From Rariglobus hedericola (GTDB lineage Bacteria; Verrucomicrobiota; Verrucomicrobiia; Opitutales; Opitutaceae): a DNA stretch of 64,000 bases. The position numbers were made by a program, and so were the translations under genes. The stretch lies in contig NZ_VMBG01000001.1 of the NCBI RefSeq assembly GCF_007559335.1, positions 434,001 through 498,000 on the forward strand, given 5' to 3'. Within the stretch, counting starts at the first letter, position 1. Each line of letters begins with the position of its first letter. Under the pieces are notes generated by a model that was given only the letters and a program-made list of their open reading frames with translations, did no database searches and was not told the DNA's origin. Shown here piece by piece: positions 33,274-47,873 of this stretch.

Positions 33274-33852
33274 GTGAAACTCATCGTCATATCTCCGGAG
33301 AACGAAGACTCCCGCGAGCAATCCGTGCTCGCGCAGCTCTTCGCTGCGGGCCTGACGAGCTATCACCTGCGCAAGCCAACTTGGTCGCGCGATCAACTCG
33401 CCGCCTGGCTCCGTTCGCTGCCGGCCGAGTTCCATTCGCGCATCGTGCTGCATTCGCACCACGAGCTTGCCGCTGAGTTCGCTGTTGGCGGTGTTCATAA
33501 TGCACCCACCGCCACGCCGTTCGCTCCGCTCCGCAGCCACGCCGTCCATTCGCTTGTCGAGTTGGGCGGACTGCTCGATGCACGTGCCCGGTTGGTTTTC
33601 AGTCCGGTCTTCCCGTCGTTTTCGAAGCCTGGCTACGGCCCCGCTTTTGACCGCGACGAACTCCGCACACTGCTCGCGCTTCCGCGCCGCGCCGAGGTGA
33701 TCGCCCTCGGCGGCATTGACGCTACGCGCATCCAAGCTTGTCGCGAATTTGGCTTCGACGGTGTCGCCATCCTCGGAGCCGTGTGGCAAGCCGCCGATCC
33801 TGTGCGTGCTTTCGCCGAACTCCAAAACGCCCTTCACGCCCATGCCGCTTGA
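33274..33852 (+). CDS. ThiE/TenI-family protein (second thiamin phosphate synthase-like)
   Basis: A 192-aa protein of the thiamin phosphate synthase/TenI superfamily, starting with GTG 13 bp after thiS. It resembles the short ThiE-like proteins found in Bacteroidetes thi operons: ISPENEDSREQSVLAQLFAAGL, YHLRKPTWSRDQLAAWL, and VIALGGIDATRIQACREFGFDGVAILGAVW at the C-terminus (phosphate-binding GG and GVA). The ThiE pyrophosphate/active-site box DGVHLGxxD is not recognisable, so it may be a TenI-like thiazole tautomerase or a non-synthase paralog (inference). It overlaps thiE by 11 bp. Both copies lie in the same operon. Confidence 0.8.
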   Translation: MKLIVISPENEDSREQSVLAQLFAAGLTSYHLRKPTWSRDQLAAWLRSLPAEFHSRIVLHSHHELAAEFAVGGVHNAPTATPFAPLRSHAVHSLVELGGLLDARARLVFSPVFPSFSKPGYGPAFDRDELRTLLALPRRAEVIALGGIDATRIQACREFGFDGVAILGAVWQAADPVRAFAELQNALHAHAA

Positions 33853-34492
33853 TCCCGACCATTTCCCTCCGGTCATGTGCCTCACGATGGACGGCCTGCC
33901 GCTCTCGCACGCCGACCAGGCGCGCGCGCTCGTCGCCGCCGGCGCGGGCTGGATTCAGCTGCGCGTGAAGAACGCCGCGCCCGACGCATGGCTCGCGATC
34001 GCCCGCGAAGTTGTCGTCATCGGCCACCAGGGTGGGGCACTCGTCACCATCAACGACTCGGTCGAGATCGCCCTCGCGGCCGACGCCGACGGCGTGCACC
34101 TCGGCAAGCTCGACGAGGATTGGATCGCAGCCCGCGCCCGTCTCGGCACTGAAAAACTTCTCGGCGGAACCGTGAACAACGCCGAAGACGCGCGTCGTGC
34201 GGCCGAGTCCCATGTGCTCGACTACGTCGGTATCGGGCCGCTGCGTTTCACGACTACAAAGCAGAAACTCGCGCCCGTCCTCGGACTCGAAGGCATCGCC
34301 GCGCTGCTGCCGCTCCTCGACGGACTGCCTGCGTGGGCCATTGGCGGCGTGTTGCCATCCGATCTGCCTGCGCTGCGTGCGGCCCGCCTCGCGGGTGTCG
34401 CGGTGTCGTCCTCGCTTTACGCAAACTCCCAAGTCACCGCCAACCACGCCGCGTTCATCGACGCGTGGAACGCGACTTCCTTAGCTCCATGA
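33842..34492 (+). CDS. thiE: Thiamin phosphate synthase ThiE
   Basis: A 216-aa TIM barrel joining HMP-PP and thiazole phosphate. ATG 33842 is used; it overlaps the upstream gene by 11 bp. ThiE motifs are clear: WIQLRVKN (residues for HMP-PP), [42 protein letters not shown] and [22 protein letters not shown], then WAIGGV and VAVSSSLYA near the end. Its last codons overlap the thiG start (ATGA). Within this operon it is the better candidate for the actual synthase than the preceding paralog. Confidence 0.93.
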
Positions 34493-35274: not shown

Positions 35275-36425
35275 GCACGTTCGTCGATACTTGGAAACAA
35301 CACGACTTCGCCGCCGTTGGCGCGCGCATTGCCGCCGCGACCGAGGCGGATGTTCGCCGTGCGCTCGGCAAGCAGGGCCGTGGTCTCAACCTCGATGATC
35401 TCGCCGCGCTGCTTTCGCCGGCCGCCGCGCCGTTTCTTGAGGAGATGGCGGCGCTCAGCCACCGGCTCACCGTCGAGCGTTTCGGTCGAACGATGCAGCT
35501 CTACGCGCCGATGTATCTGACCAACGTGTGCGCCAATATTTGCAGCTACTGCGGCTTCAGCGCGCAGAACCGCATCCCGCGCAAGGCGCTCGATGATGCG
35601 GAGATTTCCGCCGAGGCCGACGCCCTCGAAAAGTTCGGCTTCGACCACGTGCTCCTCGTGACCGGCGAATCGTCGCGCTACGGGCTCGCCTATTTTCAGA
35701 ACGCGCTGCGCCTGCTGCGTCCGCGTTTCTCCAACCTGTCGATGGAGGTTCAGCCGCTCGACGCCGAGGAATACGCCGCGTTAACCGCCGACGGTTTGAG
35801 CGCGGTGCTCGTCTATCAAGAAACCTACGATCCGATCGCTTATCCGAAGCATCATTTGAAAGGTCCCAAGGCGGACATGGAATATCGTCTGGCGACGCCG
35901 GACCGGCTCGGCACCGCCGGGGTGAAGAAGATCGGCCTTGGTGCGCTCTACGGTCTCTCCGACTGGCGTGCGGAGTCGTGGTTTGTGGGCCTGCATCTAC
36001 ACTACATGGAGAAGCATTACTGGCGCACGCGCTACAGCATCGCGTTTCCGCGGCTGCGTCCGCACGAGGGCAATGAAATTCCCGTCACTCCGTTCAACGA
36101 GCGTGATCTCATCCAGACGGCGTGCGCGTTCCGGTTGTTCAGTCAGGAAGTGGAGCTGTCGCTTTCGACGCGCGAGAGTCCGCATTTCCGCAACAATGCG
36201 TTCAAGCTCGGCTTCACGTCGATGAGCGCGGGCTCGAAGACCAATCCGGGCGGCTACGCGAGCGAACCGGAGTCGCTGGAGCAGTTCCAGATCAGCGATG
36301 AGCGTTCACCGGCCGAGGTCGCCGCTTTTTTGAAAACCAATGGTTACGAGGCCGTGTGGAAAGACTGGGATGCGACTTACGACGGCCAACAAACCGCCCG
36401 CTCCAACGATGTCGTTCACGCCTGA
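35271..36425 (+). CDS. thiH: Tyrosine lyase (2-iminoacetate synthase) ThiH
   Basis: A 384-aa radical SAM enzyme that cleaves tyrosine into p-cresol and dehydroglycine for thiazole synthesis. The cluster motif is C87-x3-C91-x2-C94 in [12 protein letters not shown]. Further ThiH features: [58 protein letters not shown] and SFNERD-type [18 protein letters not shown]. Presence of ThiH rather than the FAD oxidase ThiO indicates an oxygen-sensitive thiazole branch. It overlaps thiG by 4 bp and thiF by 17 bp. Confidence 0.96.
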
Positions 36426-37503
36426 CGAACTTGCGCGCTACCAGCGGCACCTGTCGCTCTCTGGCTTCGGGCCCGAGGCGCAGGCCAAGTTGCAGGCGTC
36501 GCGCGTGCTGGTGATCGGTGCGGGCGGGTTGGGGTGTCCGATTTTATTGTATCTCGCGGCGGCGGGCGTCGGGAAGCTGACGGTGATCGATGCGGACGTG
36601 GTCGATGTATCGAATCTTCAGCGACAGGTTTTGTTTACGACTGACGATGTCGGCCAGCCCAAGGCCGAGGCGGCGGCGCGGCGGTTGCGGGCGTTGAATT
36701 CATTGATCGAAATCGTCCCGCTGGTTGGACGGCTGAATCGCAACAACGCTTTGGAGCTGATCCGCGCGCATGACGTCGTGGTCGATGGCTCGGATAATTT
36801 TGCGACGCGCTATCTGGTGAACGATGCGTGCGTGCTCGCCGGAAAACCGCTCATTTACGGCGCGATCCAAGGTTTCGAGGGGCAGGCGAGTGTGTTTAAT
36901 TTCAAGGGTGGTCCGACGTATCGGTGTCTGTTCCCCGAGCCGCCGGCGGCGGGGACGGTGCCGAATTGTTCGGAGGCCGGCGTGCTCGGCGTGCTGCCGG
37001 GGCTGATCGGGACGATTCAAGCGACGGAGACAATCAAGGTGATCACGGGTATCGGCGAGCCGTTGTCGGGGCGGTTGCTGCTGTGGAATTCGCTGACGAT
37101 GACGTCGCGCACGCTGCGCTTTGCGGCGGATCCCGCCAGCCGGATCACCGAGCTGCCGCCGGAAGGTTATGGCGAGACGTGCGCGGTGCCGGCGAAGCCG
37201 ACGGGAGACGAACTCACCTCCGCCGAGTTGAAGGCGAATCTCACAGTGCAGCTCATCGATGTGCGCGAGGACTGGGAGCGTGCGCTCGGCGCGATACAGC
37301 CGTCGATCCACGTGCCGTTGGGAAAGCTCGGAACCGATGAAGGCGCCGCCGCGCTGGCTGCGCTCGATCCGACAAAAGACACGGTGGCGTATTGCGCGGG
37401 CGGCGTGCGCAGCCTGAAAGCACTGGTGCCGTTGCGTGAACGACATGGTTTCCAGGCGGTGCGCAGCCTGTGCGGCGGGTTTAAGGCGTGGACGGACCGT
37501 TGA
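36409..37503 (+). CDS. thiF: ThiF/MoeB-type adenylyltransferase with C-terminal rhodanese domain
   Basis: A 364-aa E1-like enzyme plus sulfurtransferase, probably activating ThiS. ATG 36409 overlaps thiH by 17 bp. The adenylation domain has GAGGLG (37-42), the dinucleotide-binding DADVVDVSNLQRQVLF and the E1-like VPNC with Cys187. The rhodanese domain (about 265-364) has VRED and the active-site loop CAGGVRS with Cys329. Of the four zinc cysteines of MoeB, only Cys173 (YRC) is seen; the partner is Thr170/Pro169 and the C-terminal CxxC is ADPASR. Thus the zinc site is likely lost. It ends the thi operon. It could be named MoeBR; thiF is favoured by context. Confidence 0.9.
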   Translation: MSFTPDELARYQRHLSLSGFGPEAQAKLQASRVLVIGAGGLGCPILLYLAAAGVGKLTVIDADVVDVSNLQRQVLFTTDDVGQPKAEAAARRLRALNSLIEIVPLVGRLNRNNALELIRAHDVVVDGSDNFATRYLVNDACVLAGKPLIYGAIQGFEGQASVFNFKGGPTYRCLFPEPPAAGTVPNCSEAGVLGVLPGLIGTIQATETIKVITGIGEPLSGRLLLWNSLTMTSRTLRFAADPASRITELPPEGYGETCAVPAKPTGDELTSAELKANLTVQLIDVREDWERALGAIQPSIHVPLGKLGTDEGAAALAALDPTKDTVAYCAGGVRSLKALVPLRERHGFQAVRSLCGGFKAWTDR

Positions 37504-37532: not shown

Positions 37533-38030
37533 CTACTGGATGAACGCGGTGGTGATTTGGTTGATGCGGAGGCGGCCGGAGAGAAGGGCGCCGGTGGGGC
37601 TGACGTTGGTGATGACGACGGGCGTGTTGGCGTCGGCGTGGACTCCGGTGAAGACGTGGGCGCTGGCGTTCACGGGGAAGAGCTGTTGTTGGACGACGCC
37701 GTTTTGGGTCCAGCGCAGGTGGACGACCTCGTCGCCGTTGAACTCCCACCACGTGATCTTTTGGAGGACGAAGGCACGGGCGGCGGTGATGGTGAAACTT
37801 TCGCCGCGCTCGAAACGGCCGAGACCGCTGTTGCCCACGCCGAAGCCGGAGCCTTCAAAGCCAAAGAAGGACGTGACGGCGGGGGCGAAGTCGGGCGCGG
37901 ACGGCGTGTTGACGTTCACACCGGTCTTGGGGGCGGCGAACGTGAGCGTGGCGGGTGTGCCGTCGGGATTGATGCTGGCGGCGAAGGACGTGCCGCCGTT
38001 GACGGCGTTCCACGGGGCGGAAGTCCAGGA
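37533..38030 (-). repeat. Copy A of a shared ~165-aa C-terminal domain
   Basis: Codes for residues 596-760 of the SGNH protein. Compared by eye with 39929-40429, more than half of residues are identical, including GFE.SGFGVG, GRFERGESFT, WTQ.GVVQQQ, ADANTPVV and LSGRLR. The two copies end both proteins. Confidence 0.85.
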
Positions 38031-39815
38031 CTGCGACGTGACGGAGTTGCCGGGAGCTCCGGGGATCGAGGGCGTGAATTTGACGGCGTCGGCGATGACG
38101 TAGCCGTTGGTCCCGGCGTTATCAATGAAGACACCGTGGTTGCTGTTCGGCGAAAACGTGAACACGCCGAGCGGATGCCAGGCGCCGCCGCTCTTTTGAT
38201 CGATGGTGAAGGGGGTGATTCCGCCCGCGTGGATGACGTCGATGGGCGTGTTACTGGCACGGTTGGCGTTGGGCACCCAGTTGACGGTGACGATGTAGTT
38301 GCCGGTGGCGGGGAATGGTGGAGTGAAGAGGGCGGTGCGAGTGCCGTCGCGCGTGTCGCCGTCGTGAAAGTAGTTGGAGCTGTGCTGGCCGGTGGCGGAG
38401 CCGGTGGTCCAGCCGGCTGATTTTGTGAAGAGCGGGGTGGCGTCGAGATTGTCGATGATCACTTCCGTCAAAGTCGGAGTGGTCGGTGCATCCACGGTGA
38501 GCGACAGCAGGGCGGCGCGCAGGGGAGCGGCGAGGAGCGCGTTTCCGGCGGGCGAGACGTGGGCGCCGTCGGTGGTGGTGTATTTGGCGGCGCCGTTGGT
38601 GAGCCAACGCGTGTTGTCGGAGGGTGTGGCGATCGCGGCGAAAGTATCGAGCAGCACGTCAATTTTACCGTCAGCAAGGTCGGTGGAAAAATTGTCGTTG
38701 ATGGCATCGCGTTTTCCGCCGGCGCCCCAGTTGGGGAGCGGAGTTTGTCCGGCGAGCGTAGCCCAGCTGTCGGTGCTGGACGTGCGGGGCATGAGCTTGG
38801 TGCGGATGATTTTTTGGACGCCGGCATTGCGAGCCATGGTCCAGATGCTCTCGGTGCGCGTGCCGATCGCGGTGGCGTCGCCGGTGCCGCCGGAGCCGAG
38901 GTCGTTGGTGCCGTATTCTTCGACGACGACGTTGGCGAACGGCAGGAAGTGCGTCTGGCGTTGCTGGCGGGCGGGGTTGACGAAGTTCGCGGCGGTCTGG
39001 CCGTGGCGCGTGAGGTTGAACGTGGCGATGGCGTTGGCGCCGGCGCTGTCGACGGCGGCGCGGTTGAAGAAGCCGTAGCCGGAAATGGCGGGAACCGGGT
39101 TGGTGAGATCGCCGGTGCCATCCAGAATGCTGTCACCGATACCGATGACGGCGAGGTGGCCGGGCGTAGTGTAACGCCCGAGGAAGACGACGGGCAGACC
39201 GGCGGGGCGGGTGGAACCGCCGGTGATGGCGGGGATGGGACCGGCGGTGTCGAAAGTGCCGGGATCATTGGCGGGCGGATAGACCACGAACTTCGAGCCC
39301 GAGTAAGTGGTGGGCGTGCCGCTGGGGATTTTTCCACCGGTGGGGATGGAACCGCGAATGTGCAGCCAGAACACCTCGTCGCGCGCGGGCGTGGCGCCGG
39401 TCCAGGTGGAAGACGGAATGGCATCGGACAACCAGAAGGGCGTGGTGGAGTTCATCGGCAGCACGAGCGTGCGGGAGCCGGAGAACGTGAGGGGCACGCG
39501 CTGGCCGGTGGAGGCGCGTTCAAGCCACGCGTGGCTGATGGTGACGTCGTTGGTGGCGTTGGGTGTTTCGGCGTCATAGGGATACATCCAGTCCATGAAG
39601 CCGATCTGTATCTCGGCGACGGGCCCGCCGAGCTTGTGCGGCGAGCGGTGGCGGAAGGACGTGTTGGCGATGGCGGGCGTGTAGAAATTGCTGGCGATGC
39701 GTCCGCCGGTGGCGACGACGCGAACGGGTTCGACCGCGTGGGTGAACGGAGTGGCCACCATGCCTAGGAAAACAGTGATGGCGGTGAGGCGAAAAAAGGA
39801 AGCGGGGGATTTCAT
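37533..39815 (-). CDS. Secreted SGNH/GDSL esterase-like protein with shared C-terminal domain
   Basis: A 760-aa secreted protein (signal peptide to about residue 27). An N-terminal beta domain is followed by an SGNH hydrolase fold: Ser229 in IGIGDSILDG, Asn304 in EYGTND, and Asp416/His419 in DGAHVSPAG. A carbohydrate-binding-like golvesin/xanthan lyase C-terminal module spans ~450-585 (SSNYFHDGDTRDG, NHGVFIDNAG). The last 165 residues are a domain shared with the neighbouring glycoside hydrolase. Likely acts on acylated glycans outside the cell (inference). It lies 113 bp downstream of the neighbouring gene on the same strand, after a terminator-like hairpin, so co-transcription is uncertain. 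Confidence 0.82.
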   Translation of the reverse strand: MKSPASFFRLTAITVFLGMVATPFTHAVEPVRVVATGGRIASNFYTPAIANTSFRHRSPHKLGGPVAEIQIGFMDWMYPYDAETPNATNDVTISHAWLERASTGQRVPLTFSGSRTLVLPMNSTTPFWLSDAIPSSTWTGATPARDEVFWLHIRGSIPTGGKIPSGTPTTYSGSKFVVYPPANDPGTFDTAGPIPAITGGSTRPAGLPVVFLGRYTTPGHLAVIGIGDSILDGTGDLTNPVPAISGYGFFNRAAVDSAGANAIATFNLTRHGQTAANFVNPARQQRQTHFLPFANVVVEEYGTNDLGSGGTGDATAIGTRTESIWTMARNAGVQKIIRTKLMPRTSSTDSWATLAGQTPLPNWGAGGKRDAINDNFSTDLADGKIDVLLDTFAAIATPSDNTRWLTNGAAKYTTTDGAHVSPAGNALLAAPLRAALLSLTVDAPTTPTLTEVIIDNLDATPLFTKSAGWTTGSATGQHSSNYFHDGDTRDGTRTALFTPPFPATGNYIVTVNWVPNANRASNTPIDVIHAGGITPFTIDQKSGGAWHPLGVFTFSPNSNHGVFIDNAGTNGYVIADAVKFTPSIPGAPGNSVTSQSWTSAPWNAVNGGTSFAASINPDGTPATLTFAAPKTGVNVNTPSAPDFAPAVTSFFGFEGSGFGVGNSGLGRFERGESFTITAARAFVLQKITWWEFNGDEVVHLRWTQNGVVQQQLFPVNASAHVFTGVHADANTPVVITNVSPTGALLSGRLRINQITTAFIQ

Positions 39816-39845
39816 GCGAAACAGGGAAAGAGGTTTAAAACCAAA

Positions 39846-39873
39846 AGAGAGGACGGCGGGGGCCGTCCTCTCT
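39846..39873 (-). terminator. Rho-independent terminator-like hairpin
   Basis: A 12-bp stem (39846-39857 with 39862-39873, AGAGAGGACGGC) with a 4-base loop. On the minus strand T-rich sequence follows (TTTTGGTTTT). It lies between the large glycan gene and the SGNH gene. Confidence 0.75.
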
Positions 39874-39928
39874 GGTTTCAGGCGGGCGATATCACGATGT
39901 CATCGAATGATGATGGGATCGCTTCGGT

Positions 39929-40429
39929 TTAATTGAGCAGAGCGGTGACGACGTGCTTCACGCGCAGGCGTCCGCTCAGGTTGGCGCTGGTCGGGCTGAC
40001 ATTGGTGAAAACGACGGGGGTATTGGCGTCGGCCTGCACACTGGTGAAGTTGAAGAGCGCCGCGTTGATCGTGAACACCTGCTGTTGCACGACACCGCCC
40101 TGGGTCCATTGCACGTGGACCTGCTCGTCGCCGGTCCACTCATACCAACTGATTTGTTGAAGCGCGAAGGCGTGATTAGTCTGGAGGGTGAAACTCTCGC
40201 CGCGCTCGAAGCGACCGACATTGGTCGGCGTGCCGACGCCGAAGCCGGACGACTCGAAACCGAAGGCGGAATTCACCGCGCCGGTGAAGTTCGGCGTGGC
40301 GGGCACCGTGACGTTCACACCGGTTTTGGGTGAACCGAAAGTCAGCGTGACGGGAATGCCATCCGGACTGAATCCGGCGGAGAACGACGTCGCACCGGCG
40401 GTGGCGCTCCACGGGGCGGCGGTCCACGA
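39929..40429 (-). repeat. Copy B of a shared ~165-aa C-terminal domain
   Basis: Codes for residues 985-1150 of the large protein. It aligns over its full length with 37533-38030, with one two-residue difference in length. The domain has a W-rich strand (ISWYEWTGDEQVHVQW) and a conserved Gly/Phe core, suggesting a beta-sandwich appended to secreted enzymes. Confidence 0.85.
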
Positions 40430-43381
40430 TTGCAGAGTGAAAGGCGTGCCGGCGGTGAGCGCGGCGCCGTTGTCGGTGGTGATCTTCAGATTCTGGATCA
40501 GGTTGATCTGTGAGAAACTCGCGGTCGAAGACGTGAAACCGAACACGGTGCCGGCGGGGAGCGAGGCGGGATTGCCGAGGCGATTGATGAGGTCGGCGAC
40601 GGGCGCGGTGGAGTCGTTGGCACCCTTGTAAAGGCGGGTGCGAACGGTGCCGGCGTCACCATCGTAATCGATTACGACAAACATGTCCTCGGCGTAGCCC
40701 CACGGATAGAGAGGCAGCGGCTGGGACGCGAAACCGTCGACATTGGGTGTGACGGGCGCGGGCGTGATCGCGATGAGATCAGGCTCGGTGCCCTTGGCCT
40801 GCACCTTCACGCCGAAAAGGACGTTGGGCTGCTGATAGAAGCCGAGGCCGGCGAGACCGGCGCCATGTTGCGCGGGGTTGGCCGAGTAGGCGCCAAAGAC
40901 GAAGCCGGAGCCGGCGTGACCGGAGTTGATGCGGTAGCCGAAGCGCGCCTGCATGCGTTTCTGCGAGGCCGCGAGCGGCTGGCCGGCAAAGACCACGGCG
41001 GTGGTGAGGTTGGCGCTGTTGTGCGTGAGCTTGAGATCACCGGTGATCACGGCCGGCTGGAACGAGCCGGTGTGATAGGTGAGCATGCCGTCGGGCGCGG
41101 TCGTGAACGTGGTGTCGAGCACGACGTTGCTCGTGGGCGGGCCGGGCGGGGCTACGATCGCAGGCGCGTCGCTGCGCAGGTAACGGAATACCCGCGTGGT
41201 CATGGCCGGGAACGTGTAGCTGAAGCTCGTGCCGAGGCTGGTGGGCACGGCGACGTCGGGCAGCTCGGTCGCGGACATGACGAACATCTCGGGATTGGTA
41301 GAGCCGGAGACCGGCGCGTTGGTGATCGCGAGTGACGCGGTGATGGCGCCGTCGTTGCGATTCAAGACCTGCACATAGACGTAGCGTTCATCCTGGGTGC
41401 CGGTGACGAGCAAGTGCGTGTCGCTGCTATGCTGCTCGAGGATTTCATCGCCGGTGAGACGGTTGTGGACGTAGGTGGCCCACCACGCGTGGTTCGGCAG
41501 GTTGTTCTGATAATAGTGCATGGCGGGGTTCGTCTTGATGTCGAAGGCGAAGCCGCTGCTGAGAATATTGCGCGGGTTGTAGAGCGAGAAGTGATCGTAG
41601 GTGAGGAACCACAGGCCTTGGGTGATGGTGTGACGCATCTCCAGCGGGATGTTGAACTCGGTGATGCCGGTGCCGACGTTTTCGGGAAAACCGTATTCAC
41701 GAAGTTTGCCCTGGATGGCGCCTTCGCCGCGGTAGGGCCACTGGGCAATGCGGGCCTGGGTGAAGGAGACCTGTTCGGTCGGGTGATTGAGAATGTTGTA
41801 GGCGTTCTCGACGGGATCGGGTGCGTTGGTCTCCCAATCGTAGATCTCGGCGTAGAGGTGGCGGGTAACAACGTCGACCTGCTGGTAGCCATTGAGAGGT
41901 GCGGCGCATTGGGCGAAGAATGCGTTGAGGATGTTGTCGGCGCGGTTGGCGTTCATAGCGAAGCCGTATTCGGCGGCGACGACCGGACCGCAGAGCTTCA
42001 CATTTTGACGCACGCCGGAGGCGATGAGCTGGTTATGAACGCTCTGGAAGGCGTCGATGTATTCCTGCGGTGAGGCGACCTGATAATCGACTGAGATGTC
42101 GGGCTCGTTGCCGACCTCCCAGTATTGGGTGGTGAGGTTGAAGGGGGGCGCCTTGTAACGCTGGACCAGGAAGGCGATATTGGTGGCGATGGTGCCGGAG
42201 CCGATGTTGCCGTTCAGATCGAGGAAGTTGTCATGCAAGTGCTGCTGCTCGGTGTTGAAGGGCGGATTCGGCTTGGTGATCGGACCGACGAAGAGCGGAA
42301 CGCCGCCGGCGTTGATGATCTGGGCGACGCGGATATCCATGTCGTTAAGCGTGTAGTCCTTCGAAGGATAAACACCGGTGCGGATCATGCCGACCTTCAG
42401 GCGTTCGAGATCGGCGCGGTAGTTGGGCGTGGTGGACATCCAGAATTTGCCGGCGCTCAGATTCACGCCGAGCTGGCCGATGCCGACGTTGTCGATCACG
42501 TTTGCGGCGTTTACCGCAAGGGCGGGTTGGGTCACGGTGATGCTGCCGGAACCGCTCAGGAAGATCGCAGGGAAGGCGGTCTGGAGTTGCGCGAACGTGT
42601 AGGTCGTGTTGGCGGCTAACGTGGTGCCGTTTCGCTTGAGACCGGCCAGGCCGTCGGTGGCGTTGGTCGTGCCGCCCACCACGAGGCTGGTGACGGTGAG
42701 ATTGTGGTTAAGGTTCACCTTGCTGCCGGCCTCAATGACGAGCGAGCCCTTGAGGTTGGCTGCGCTCGTGGTGCTGAGGGTGCTGCTCCCGGTCAGATAG
42801 AGTGTGCCATAGAAGCCGGTGCCGGTGGTGACGGCCAGTTGATGGATGCCGCCACCGAGAAGCTGGAGGTCGCCGTCACCGCGAAGGTTGCCGAAGGTGA
42901 GGTTCAATCCGCGGGTTGCGCCGCCGGTGTTGAACGAAGTCACCTCGGAACGCGTTGTGAGGAAGTCGGTGACGTTGAGGATCTGCGTGCCGCCAGAGCC
43001 GTTTGAGAGACCGCGCGCCGAACCTCCTTTGGTGAGCAGGGCGGGGATCGTGACGGGATTGGTCGAGGTGCCGTTTTGCTTTATGAGAACTGAACCACCG
43101 TCGATGATGAGCACGCCGCCCGTGAAGGGGGACGCCACGGAGGTTTCGGGCGTGCGCAACACGTAACCGTTGGTATGGAAAGTATCGGCGTTGCTGATAC
43201 TGGAGGGGTTGGTGCCTCCGCCGGACGGCTGCGACCACCAGGCGGCGGGGGTATGCCAGTGTTGGGAAAGGCCGCTGTTGGCCTGGAGATACCAGTCGGC
43301 GGCGTTGAGGGTGGAGACCAGACCGGTTGCCGCGCCGAGGGTGAGGCGCAGCAGGAAACGTAAACGTATCGACGGAGTCAT
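39929..43381 (-). CDS. Large secreted glycoside hydrolase-like protein
   Basis: A 1150-aa secreted protein from the ATG at 43381 (signal peptide to about residue 27, LNAADWY; the longer ORF reads over the 5' leader). Residues ~30-290 are a Gly/Thr-rich beta-helix-like region. A (beta/alpha)8 clan GH-A-like catalytic region spans ~300-720: candidate acid/base Glu426 in WEVGNEPD and nucleophile candidate Glu575 in GITEFNIPLE. A LamG-like region follows (VVLDTTFTTAPDGM onward), then the domain shared with the SGNH neighbour. Family membership (GH39/GH79/GH44-like) cannot be fixed. LacI gene upstream suggests sugar-controlled expression. Confidence 0.82.
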   Translation of the reverse strand: MTPSIRLRFLLRLTLGAATGLVSTLNAADWYLQANSGLSQHWHTPAAWWSQPSGGGTNPSSISNADTFHTNGYVLRTPETSVASPFTGGVLIIDGGSVLIKQNGTSTNPVTIPALLTKGGSARGLSNGSGGTQILNVTDFLTTRSEVTSFNTGGATRGLNLTFGNLRGDGDLQLLGGGIHQLAVTTGTGFYGTLYLTGSSTLSTTSAANLKGSLVIEAGSKVNLNHNLTVTSLVVGGTTNATDGLAGLKRNGTTLAANTTYTFAQLQTAFPAIFLSGSGSITVTQPALAVNAANVIDNVGIGQLGVNLSAGKFWMSTTPNYRADLERLKVGMIRTGVYPSKDYTLNDMDIRVAQIINAGGVPLFVGPITKPNPPFNTEQQHLHDNFLDLNGNIGSGTIATNIAFLVQRYKAPPFNLTTQYWEVGNEPDISVDYQVASPQEYIDAFQSVHNQLIASGVRQNVKLCGPVVAAEYGFAMNANRADNILNAFFAQCAAPLNGYQQVDVVTRHLYAEIYDWETNAPDPVENAYNILNHPTEQVSFTQARIAQWPYRGEGAIQGKLREYGFPENVGTGITEFNIPLEMRHTITQGLWFLTYDHFSLYNPRNILSSGFAFDIKTNPAMHYYQNNLPNHAWWATYVHNRLTGDEILEQHSSDTHLLVTGTQDERYVYVQVLNRNDGAITASLAITNAPVSGSTNPEMFVMSATELPDVAVPTSLGTSFSYTFPAMTTRVFRYLRSDAPAIVAPPGPPTSNVVLDTTFTTAPDGMLTYHTGSFQPAVITGDLKLTHNSANLTTAVVFAGQPLAASQKRMQARFGYRINSGHAGSGFVFGAYSANPAQHGAGLAGLGFYQQPNVLFGVKVQAKGTEPDLIAITPAPVTPNVDGFASQPLPLYPWGYAEDMFVVIDYDGDAGTVRTRLYKGANDSTAPVADLINRLGNPASLPAGTVFGFTSSTASFSQINLIQNLKITTDNGAALTAGTPFTLQSWTAAPWSATAGATSFSAGFSPDGIPVTLTFGSPKTGVNVTVPATPNFTGAVNSAFGFESSGFGVGTPTNVGRFERGESFTLQTNHAFALQQISWYEWTGDEQVHVQWTQGGVVQQQVFTINAALFNFTSVQADANTPVVFTNVSPTSANLSGRLRVKHVVTALLN

Positions 43382-43547
43382 CGTGATGGGGGTTGGGTTT
43401 TTTGCAGAGACCGGTTGAACGGCGTGCGGGGGTAAGAACTGACCCTTGAGGCGATGGCTGCCGGTGACGCTCCGACCAACCGGTATTTTGCCGATCACGA
43501 TTCGCAGACGGGGGAAGCCTGCGGGTTTTACGGTAATTTAATCCGAA

Positions 43548-43567: not shown

Positions 43568-44653
43568 TTACGAAGCGCGTGGAGTTTCGATCAACGCCGA
43601 TCCCTCGCGCACGGGAACACTTTCTCCGTCGCGCCAATTTCCCTCGATTTGGAGGAGCTTGGGCATGGGTGAAAGACCCCGTTCGTTTTGGGTGAGTTGC
43701 GTGGTAAGCAAATCCACGGCCATGGCGCCGATGACATCGTGACACTGATAAATGCCGCCGATCTCCGGGTGTTCGGAGGAGCAATCGAACGTCGCGAATG
43801 CGATGTCGTCGGGAATGCGCCAGCCCATGTCGTGGATCACGTGCCATGCGAGGTATTCGCCGAGGATCACATCGGGGCGTTCTTGCTCGATCCACGAGCG
43901 CACATGACGCCGGTCTTCGGTGTTGTCGGTGCCGGAGAATACGCACAACTTGATCCATTGGCGGCCCCAGGGCTGCATCTGCTCGTAATAAAGCGGGTAA
44001 AGCCAGCCGTGGTTTACCTTTTGATCGTAGGCGGTGGACACGATCACGGCGATGCGACGGTAACCCATTTCGAAGAGGCGGTGCAGGGCCATCGGCACGC
44101 TCTTGTTGTAGTTGAACGCCACGCGGTGCAGCGGGGATTGCGCAAGGCCGGAACCGAGCGCGACCGACGAAAAATTCTCCCAGGAAAACCGCTCGAAGAC
44201 GGCCGAGGTCGAGGGATTTATCATTCCCGGGATCAACAGGCCGTGGATGCCGCGACTTTGAAGCATGCGGGCGAGATTGCCCGAGTTGACGCCCGGCTCG
44301 CAGACCCATACCGGCTCCAGCACGTAGCCGGCCTGCTCGGCGCGTTCGCGCGCGCCCAGAAAATTGTCGTATTGATGAGCGGGCAAATCTTCGGCGCGCG
44401 CGCTGTGCGGATGCGATACGATGAACGCGAGGTTGGCCTGATACCGCGGCGCCTTGGTGGAACGCAGGTGGGCCATGAACGCCGCGGCGAGCGGGTTTGC
44501 CCTCCAGCCCATCTCGGTGGCGATCTTTTGGATACGCTCTCGCGTGGCGAGGGAGATGCGCGGATCGTTGCGCAAGGCGTTGCTCACCGTCGACTGGCTG
44601 CATTCACAGGCATCGGCAATCTCTCGTGTCGTGGGGTAACGGCTGACGGACAT
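43568..44653 (-). CDS. LacI-family transcriptional regulator
   Basis: A 361-aa regulator. ATG 44653 is chosen because the HTH begins immediately: TTREIADACECSQSTVSNALRNDPRIS, the LacI helix-turn-helix and hinge (RERIQKIATEMGW). The C-terminal periplasmic-binding-like domain has RGIHGLLIPGM and RIAVIVSTAYD, plus an EHPEIGGIYQCHDVIGAMAVDLL segment close to the end. It lies 186 bp upstream of the secreted glycoside hydrolase gene on the same strand and is divergent from dinB. It probably controls the glycan locus in response to a sugar (inference); ligand unknown. Confidence 0.92.
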   Translation of the reverse strand: MSVSRYPTTREIADACECSQSTVSNALRNDPRISLATRERIQKIATEMGWRANPLAAAFMAHLRSTKAPRYQANLAFIVSHPHSARAEDLPAHQYDNFLGARERAEQAGYVLEPVWVCEPGVNSGNLARMLQSRGIHGLLIPGMINPSTSAVFERFSWENFSSVALGSGLAQSPLHRVAFNYNKSVPMALHRLFEMGYRRIAVIVSTAYDQKVNHGWLYPLYYEQMQPWGRQWIKLCVFSGTDNTEDRRHVRSWIEQERPDVILGEYLAWHVIHDMGWRIPDDIAFATFDCSSEHPEIGGIYQCHDVIGAMAVDLLTTQLTQNERGLSPMPKLLQIEGNWRDGESVPVREGSALIETPRAS

Positions 44654-44781
44654 GCCCGAATACCCTAACTGCCGGCGGCCCGCTTGGGAAGCCTCCGGCT
44701 TCATTTCTTGTGATTTTGATTTAGTCGGGTGGTTGAAACGCGATGCAACGTCGCTTCTACTGCGTGACGGTTTTCCCGCTC

Positions 44782-46916: not shown

Positions 46917-47873
46917 TCACTTTTGTTCAAACACCCCATAGTGGCCCAGCGTGGCTGCGAAATTGCCGTCATGTAGCCAAGTGCGAGCGGATTGGCTGCC
47001 TTTCAGCTCGGCGTCCCAGAAAGCGAGTGTGGAGCGTTCGATGAAATCATGAAAACGAAGATCACGAGCGTCGGGCTTCTGTCGTGCAGTGGGCCCGGAG
47101 AATACCATGTGATCGCCGCCTTCGAACGTCAGCAGGCAGGCGGGCGCGGAATGAGTCTGATCGTAGGGGATACGGCGATCTTTGGCGTTTTTGACACTGC
47201 CGGCCTGATCGGTGTCGGCGGTGCCGGTGAGATGATAGACTGGAATCTTAATGGCGGCGTAAAGATCGTCGCGCCGCGGGGCGGGCGTGCTCATGGCGAT
47301 GGCGGCTTTGATGCGCGGATCGTATCCACCGATTGGATGCGCTGGAGTGATGGTGGCCAATGTGGTGAAGGATCCAAAGGAGTGCCCGGCGAGGCCAATG
47401 CGGTTGAGATCAAGTCGTGCGTGGAGTGGCGATGCGGTGCCCGCGTTGAGCGCGGTGAGTTGATCGAGAGCGAACGAGACATCACGGGGACGATTGCGGG
47501 CGTTGTCAGGATCGGCCGCGGCACGACGGAGGTCTTTCATGGGCCGCTTGCTGTCTTTCCAGACGGCTTCGTCACTTCCTGGGTGCTGAAGGTGGACGCT
47601 GATGTAGCCATGCGCCGCCCAATAATCTCCAAGATAACCGTAGCCCTCGCGTGAACCGCCCAACCCGTGGGAGAAAATAATCACCGGACAGGGCGACGTG
47701 GTGTTGGCTGGATAATAAATTTTGGCGGGCACATCGCGGTTGCGAGCGGAGTCGTGCCAGTTGAGGAGGAGGGTTTTTACCGGTGCGACCCTGGTGTCTG
47801 CCGGATAGTTGGGTGCGGCGGAGAGCGGTAGAATTCCGATGAGGCAAAAAATCGCGATGGCGGTCAGTTTCAT
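46917..47873 (-). CDS. Secreted alpha/beta hydrolase (platelet-activating-factor acetylhydrolase-like)
   Basis: A 318-aa alpha/beta hydrolase with a signal peptide (LTAIAIFCLIGILPLSA). The oxyanion region is PVIIFSHGLGGSREGY and the nucleophile elbow is AGHSFGS. A GGDHMVFSG segment near the C-terminus carries the likely catalytic His. The layout resembles predicted dienelactone hydrolase/PAF-AH-like enzymes of the periplasm. Substrate unknown. It is monocistronic, about 150 bp downstream of the gene ending at 46768's neighbour region, and divergent from the HDOD gene at 48046. Confidence 0.85.
   Translation of the reverse strand: MKLTAIAIFCLIGILPLSAAPNYPADTRVAPVKTLLLNWHDSARNRDVPAKIYYPANTTSPCPVIIFSHGLGGSREGYGYLGDYWAAHGYISVHLQHPGSDEAVWKDSKRPMKDLRRAAADPDNARNRPRDVSFALDQLTALNAGTASPLHARLDLNRIGLAGHSFGSFTTLATITPAHPIGGYDPRIKAAIAMSTPAPRRDDLYAAIKIPVYHLTGTADTDQAGSVKNAKDRRIPYDQTHSAPACLLTFEGGDHMVFSGPTARQKPDARDLRFHDFIERSTLAFWDAELKGSQSARTWLHDGNFAATLGHYGVFEQK

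Follow-up and report, generated by a model that had tools for sequence, protein, structure and literature searches.

A module shared by two adjacent secreted enzymes of Rariglobus hedericola is a probable carbohydrate-binding module of Verrucomicrobiota

Among the closest described accessory domains are the jelly rolls of the carbohydrate-binding module (CBM) families CBM6, CBM32, CBM35 and CBM61, beta-sandwiches that are carried by carbohydrate-active enzymes. Some accessory beta domains act as spacers or stabilisers, and PEP-CTERM signals consist of a PEP motif, a hydrophobic stretch and a basic end at the C-terminus. Here we analysed a stretch of 64,000 nucleotides (the window) of the verrucomicrobium Rariglobus hedericola (GCF_007559335.1, contig NZ_VMBG01000001.1, positions 434,001 to 498,000, forward strand). 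Two adjacent genes of the window encode an SGNH/GDSL-esterase-like protein of 760 amino acids (aa) and a protein of 1150 aa, termed GHX, that weakly resembles glycoside hydrolase (GH) family 39. Both proteins end in the same domain, the tail, which we consider most likely to be a CBM-type module that keeps the enzymes attached to the polymer they break down.

A BLASTP comparison aligned residues 589-759 of the 760-aa protein with residues 978-1149 of the 1150-aa protein, with 106 of 172 positions identical (62%), one gap and an E-value (E) of 7e-62. Among the segments listed this was the sole significant one, all others having E 1.3 or worse. A preliminary description of the locus, made from the sequence alone, had proposed a shared C-terminal domain of about 165 aa with more than half of its residues identical; this was borne out, and its tail coordinates proved right within a codon (Table 1). 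Its view that the catalytic parts are of different kinds agrees with a GDSL/SGNH profile match below the cut-off in one protein and a weak GH39 signal in relatives of the other, and by sequence the two catalytic parts look unrelated. The similarity is not confined to this pair, as copies occur in other genomes and the organism's own genome (4.15 Mb, 16 contigs; 18 of 18 first-look candidates scored) holds a third one. This copy (C1:2288410-2288916) is 58% identical and lies on a shorter GHX paralogue (L004) upstream of two GH5 genes. All three copies are C-terminal.

The esterase assignment of the 760-aa protein is based on a Lipase_GDSL_2 match (E 2.6e-6, under the Pfam cut-off) and on visible GDS, GTND and DxxH blocks, which we take to be the SGNH motifs. 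A Golvesin_C domain stands directly ahead of the tail, giving the order SGNH/GDSL, Golvesin_C, shared tail; it matches chain residues 900-1037 of a Paenibacillus xanthan lyase (PDB 6f2p, E 5.2e-27). The catalytic part of GHX could be assigned to GH39 only weakly. The 1150-aa protein itself gave zero Pfam matches at E <= 1 and did not reach the GH39 gathering cut-off, and a single-sequence PDB search with the GH39-like part gave nothing at E <= 1. A profile of GHX relatives matched beta-xylosidases in the PDB (best 6yyh, E 0.0048), presumably GH39 enzymes, and one relative matched Pfam GH39 below the cut-off (best 21.0 bits, cut-off 26). The AlphaFold model of this part, built from 6 sequences, was poor, with a predicted local distance difference test (pLDDT) score of 46. 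Just ahead of the GHX tail stands a legume-lectin-like region; Lectin_legB was found in 5 of 6 members of alignment A6 at E <= 1 (best E 1.4e-4). The tblastn match of the own-genome paralogue L004 begins at residue 266 of the window GHX, and an alternative GTG start of GHX at 43498 would add 39 aa.

Across all searches, 30 proteins yielded 43 module copies with a length of 100 residues or more; this count omits half a copy from locus L040 and a 42-aa piece at the contig end of L097. By class labels assigned in this analysis itself, the proteins comprise 16 GH5-type, 9 GHX and 4 SGNH-like proteins and 1 without a catalytic domain. Thus 29 of 30 combine the module with a catalytic domain of one of these three classes, the GH5 class being firm by Pfam (PF00150 in 15 of 16) and the other two lying below the cut-offs. 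The remaining GH5-type protein (L060) is cut off at the end of its contig and had no match in Pfam. Three of the four SGNH-like proteins were scanned with Pfam, and Lipase_GDSL_2 lay below the cut-off in all three; the fourth (L049) shares 84% identity with the window protein over 706 aa. The module therefore presents itself as a discrete non-catalytic domain within carbohydrate-active enzymes, one of the properties by which a CBM is recognised. Recurrence at the C-terminus of many secreted enzymes, which the preliminary description had envisaged, was observed for the GH39-like and SGNH-like proteins (13 of 30), but in the GH5-type proteins (16 of 30) the module lies N-terminal of the catalytic domain. 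Six of these 16 carry three tandem copies, which begin soon after a signal-like start. Two genomes, G945 and G946, carry the module on GHX, SGNH-like and GH5 enzymes alike; both recur, by place and score, as the same-genus genomes G1379 and G1377. In genome G049, which also encodes a three-copy protein (L039), a 620-aa GH5 protein (L040:8123-9982, - strand) has the first half of one copy fused to most of another and looks as if tandem copies had recombined.

The arrangement of the genes is conserved as well. The order LacI-family regulator, GHX, SGNH-like gene was kept in all three other cassettes looked at (L048, L049 and L050), suggesting that a sugar controls their joint expression. We searched 252 genomes of the family for the GHX core, scoring at most 4 candidates in each. 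Five genomes gave matches, which include five tail-less paralogues within the genus of the window. In these five, even a profile search run without filtering detected no tail, and in all five Golvesin_C occupies the tail slot. In G367, neither the tail nor Golvesin_C is present on the SGNH orthologue that neighbours a tailed GHX gene. Judged by these cases, the tail behaves as an exchangeable accessory on a stable catalytic core. Immediately downstream of one GHX paralogue with Golvesin_C in the organism's own genome lies an open frame that encodes a SASA-type carbohydrate esterase domain (L117:4598-9312, + strand), so that the theme of glycosidase plus esterase recurs with a different accessory domain. 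Elsewhere in the same genome, three Golvesin_C domains lie in two large open frames within 7 kb (G000:C1:1031505-1037965).

A tree built from all 43 copies separates those at C-termini, together with the copy from Phycisphaerae, from the GH5-linked ones (98/96). Copies from tandem position 3 cluster (99/98, 8 rows), as do those from position 2 (100/98, 7 rows, Kiritimatiellales copies included), while position 1 copies group with the position 2 cluster (99/96) without forming a cluster of their own. The tandem arrangement therefore predates these species. The tails of GHX and of SGNH-like proteins do not fall neatly into two groups, and several forks among the tails are weak. In G945, the two adjacent tails are more closely related to each other than to any other copy (100/98) and share 93.6% DNA identity. 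The corresponding DNA identity is 72.4% in G309, a genome of the same genus as the window, and in G946 it is 75.4% (395 bases compared); the window pair has 63% protein and 71.2% DNA identity. With this divergence of the window pair, and with the module found elsewhere, a recent local duplication was rejected as the whole explanation. Judged by its tail identity, local exchange or duplication seems to happen in G945, and exchange of tails between neighbouring genes would be the simplest reading of the pattern.

The module was matched in 6 of 252 genomes of the family (including 4 of the 13 same-genus genomes listed), in 5 of 384 of the class and in 5 of 387 of the phylum. These samples and that of the order overlap, and in most genomes 9-14 first-look candidates were scored, so that the number of copies per genome is a minimum. 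The phylum to which the Phycisphaerae genome belongs gave matches in 2 of 294 genomes, namely in that genome itself and in one with a doubtful hit (33 columns, E 0.006). Two short peptide patterns were also run against genome_contigs, a collection described as covering 84,980 species. Such patterns overlook distant copies, so that the result, 17 stretches (16 loci) encoding a module relative out of 190 matched, is a lower bound. The named taxa were Rariglobus sp. and Cerasicoccus frondis, arenae and maritimus; of the metagenome-assembled genomes, two were from Opitutaceae and one each from Puniceicoccaceae, Opitutia, a further group of Verrucomicrobiota, Kiritimatiellales and Phycisphaerae. 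A phage or plasmid origin was discarded: tblastn with query P0004 gave no match in the phage and plasmid collections, and none of 91 viral-contig stretches fitting the peptide pattern encodes a module relative. Comparison with viral protein structures gave weak, mixed matches, one at E 7.9e-4 with a TM-score of 0.40.

Modelled alone from a 30-row alignment, the tail is confidently predicted as a beta fold of eleven strands and one short helix (pLDDT 91.1, predicted TM-score 0.88). The best VIA-align match of the model was 9q5u (Z 11.4, 144 aligned residues, root-mean-square deviation 3.5, 15% identity), an Aeromonas salmonicida crystal structure with a split domain whose title names a 'putative carbohydrate binding module'. 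The second row was an agarase CBM6 (Z 8.2), followed by many jelly rolls at Z 6-8 that include several CBMs and unrelated proteins; by Z-score, only 9q5u stands clear of the background level described for the tool. Pfam searches with 29 module members (alignment A2) gave no CBM model. Three families matched one member each, DUF5785 (E 0.0016), MoaF_like (E 0.017) and MISS (E 0.029), and were dismissed as chance. No Pfam family was found for the tails; according to the preliminary description, a match to a defined family of known function, or a similarity limited to this pair, would have counted against its proposal. NCBIfam searches with 30 members likewise gave no CBM model and four one-member families (best E 0.03). 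Golvesin_C (PF25275) matched neither the two window tails at E <= 1 nor the 29 A2 members at E <= 0.1. Two PDB sequence matches of the tail (E 0.58 and 1.4) were taken as chance. Relative to Pfam, NCBIfam and PDB sequences the module is thus undescribed; it may be a numbered CBM family that Pfam lacks.

Several results weigh against reading the tail as a CBM. Foldseek gave no match of the tail model to the PDB at E <= 0.001; the top row was a component of a bacterial toxin (E 0.0098), followed by a CBM16 (E 0.012), and the 50 rows listed do not include 9q5u. The role of 9q5u is itself putative, by title. VIA-align also listed an intraflagellar transport protein, laminin and Cry proteins at Z around 7, and jelly-roll folds serve many purposes. 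The module is rare, being matched in 10 of 372 genomes of the order, and the Phycisphaerae protein (L063) has no catalytic domain. We nevertheless favour a CBM-like module because a discrete predicted beta-sandwich is used at either end of different enzymes, occurs in tandem, is replaced in its slot by another domain and finds its best fold match in a putative CBM. The tail would accordingly be an autonomous non-catalytic module that, once secreted, attaches to a polysaccharide and holds its enzyme there. Glycosidase and esterase would share the tail because both act on the same decorated glycan, both would be under one LacI-type regulator, and related genomes would place the module ahead of GH5 enzymes for the same purpose.

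The preliminary description had offered sorting, anchoring and glycan binding as possible roles. Glycan binding is the best supported, given unrelated carbohydrate enzymes with the module at either end, tandem copies, accessory exchange and the fold of a putative CBM, and surface anchoring, a spacer and self-association all appear less likely. Anchoring of the enzymes to the producer's cell surface through an envelope glycan or protein, in the manner of surface-layer homology domains, would account for one module on three enzyme classes and for tandem copies close behind the signal-like start of GH5 proteins, and by eye no other anchor is visible in the two window proteins. We regard it as unlikely, since the module is patchy even within the genus, shares its slot with Golvesin_C, and is joined in L063 to a separate PEP-CTERM-like end. 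That some accessory beta domains are mere spacers speaks for a ligand-free structural element or stabiliser of secreted enzymes, yet 22 columns of alignment A4 are invariant, including charged and aromatic positions (E, D, R and W), and tandem copies, use at either end and the fold match to a putative CBM also make this quite improbable.

The idea that the tails self-associate and so assemble esterase and glycosidase into a complex draws on the adjacent genes with the same tail and on the G945 pair with its 93.6% DNA identity. Against it, single copies were found in G327 and G943 (all first-look candidates scored) and in G367 (14 of 18 scored), and we think it very improbable. We give hardly any credence to the idea that a dedicated secretion or anchoring machinery recognises the module as a C-terminal sorting signal. 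The C-terminal position of all three own-genome copies would suit it, as would the exosortase-like proteins of this genome (6 matches at E <= 0.001, 1 of them over the cut-off). It is contradicted by the 16 GH5-type proteins with the module ahead of the catalytic domain. The window tails, ending in ...QITTAFIQ and ...VVTALLN, lack the PEP motif, the hydrophobic stretch and the basic end of PEP-CTERM signals. L063 (232 aa from stop to stop) consists of a signal-like start, the module and a distinct end that we take to be PEP-CTERM; in NCBIfam it matched one PEP-CTERM family only, far under the cut-off (E 0.042).

Returning to the CBM-type module, we lean slightly towards a fuller account in which an undescribed CBM family, mainly of Opitutaceae- and Puniceicoccaceae-like Verrucomicrobiota, tags teams of glycosidase, esterase and GH5 enzymes for one decorated polysaccharide, shares its slot with Golvesin_C and has its tails exchanged between neighbours, at 93.6% DNA identity in one genome and 71-75% in three others. 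If so, a profile of the module would annotate unknown ends of secreted Verrucomicrobiota enzymes and tie the GH39-like enzyme, the SGNH-like esterase and the GH5 enzymes to probably one substrate, making an otherwise unassignable enzyme set testable. The neighbouring tails would also illustrate how adjacent genes exchange a module.

Other genes of the window include two adjacent thiamine-phosphate-synthase-like (TMP-TENI) genes, one of them divergent (33274-33852 and 33716-34492, + strand; E 4.4e-12 and 9.5e-41). They sit in an apparent thiamine gene cluster, whose other members were named by eye, followed by a ThiF-rhodanese protein (36340-37503). A hydrolase with a signal-like start (46917-47873, - strand) matches PETase-like PF12740 (E 3.8e-11) and PAF-AH_p_II (E 1.7e-11).

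Table 1. Positions in the window of the two enzyme genes, their domains and the upstream regulator gene (ORF, open reading frame).
Feature	Position	Strand	Basis or remark
SGNH/GDSL-esterase-like protein, 760 aa	37533..39815	-	ORF and translation; signal-like N-terminus (by eye); Pfam Lipase_GDSL_2 below cut-off
Shared module copy 1, C-terminal, 166 aa	37536..38033	-	stop codon left out
Golvesin_C domain, residues 452-581 of 760-aa protein	38073..38462	-	PF25275, E 1.3e-22, over cut-off
SGNH-like catalytic region, residues 226-426 of 760-aa protein	38538..39140	-	Pfam profile and sequence blocks
GH39-like protein (GHX), 1150 aa	39929..43381	-	ORF; signal-like N-terminus (by eye)
Shared module copy 2, C-terminal, 167 aa	39932..40432	-	stop codon left out
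Legume-lectin-like region of GHX, about residues 755-975	40457..41119	-	weak; Lectin_legB in relatives
GH39-like catalytic region of GHX, about residues 285-740	41162..42529	-	alignments; WEVGNEPD motif
N-terminal stretch of GHX, residues 27-284	42530..43303	-	unmatched in own-genome paralogue
LacI-family regulator, upstream of both enzyme genes	43568..44704	-	Pfam LacI, E 6.3e-9; conserved in cassette

Literature searches covering the available parts of sources including PMC12077191, PMC11002231 and PMC10049358 found no description of this module. With PEP-CTERM signals it has in common only that one module protein, L063, carries such an end, which is separate from the module and absent from the window tails; C-terminal sorting domains in general have an obligate C-terminal position, unlike the module. 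Golvesin_C is a separate sequence family that resembles the tail in taking the C-terminal slot on GH39-like paralogues, and it adjoins the tail in the esterase-like protein. The CBM6, CBM32, CBM35 and CBM61 jelly rolls are alike in beta-sandwich layout and in accessory use on carbohydrate-active enzymes, but at Z 6.4-8.2, with 4-13% identity and no Pfam match, they may have only a common arrangement with it. A fucose-binding module of A. hydrophila has been described (PMC12077191), and the available main text of that article contains neither 'salmonicida' nor '9q5u'. The Aeromonas structure 9q5u, compared by title only, differs from the tail in sequence and gave no match in the PDB profile search, but by VIA-align it is the best fold match of the tail model.

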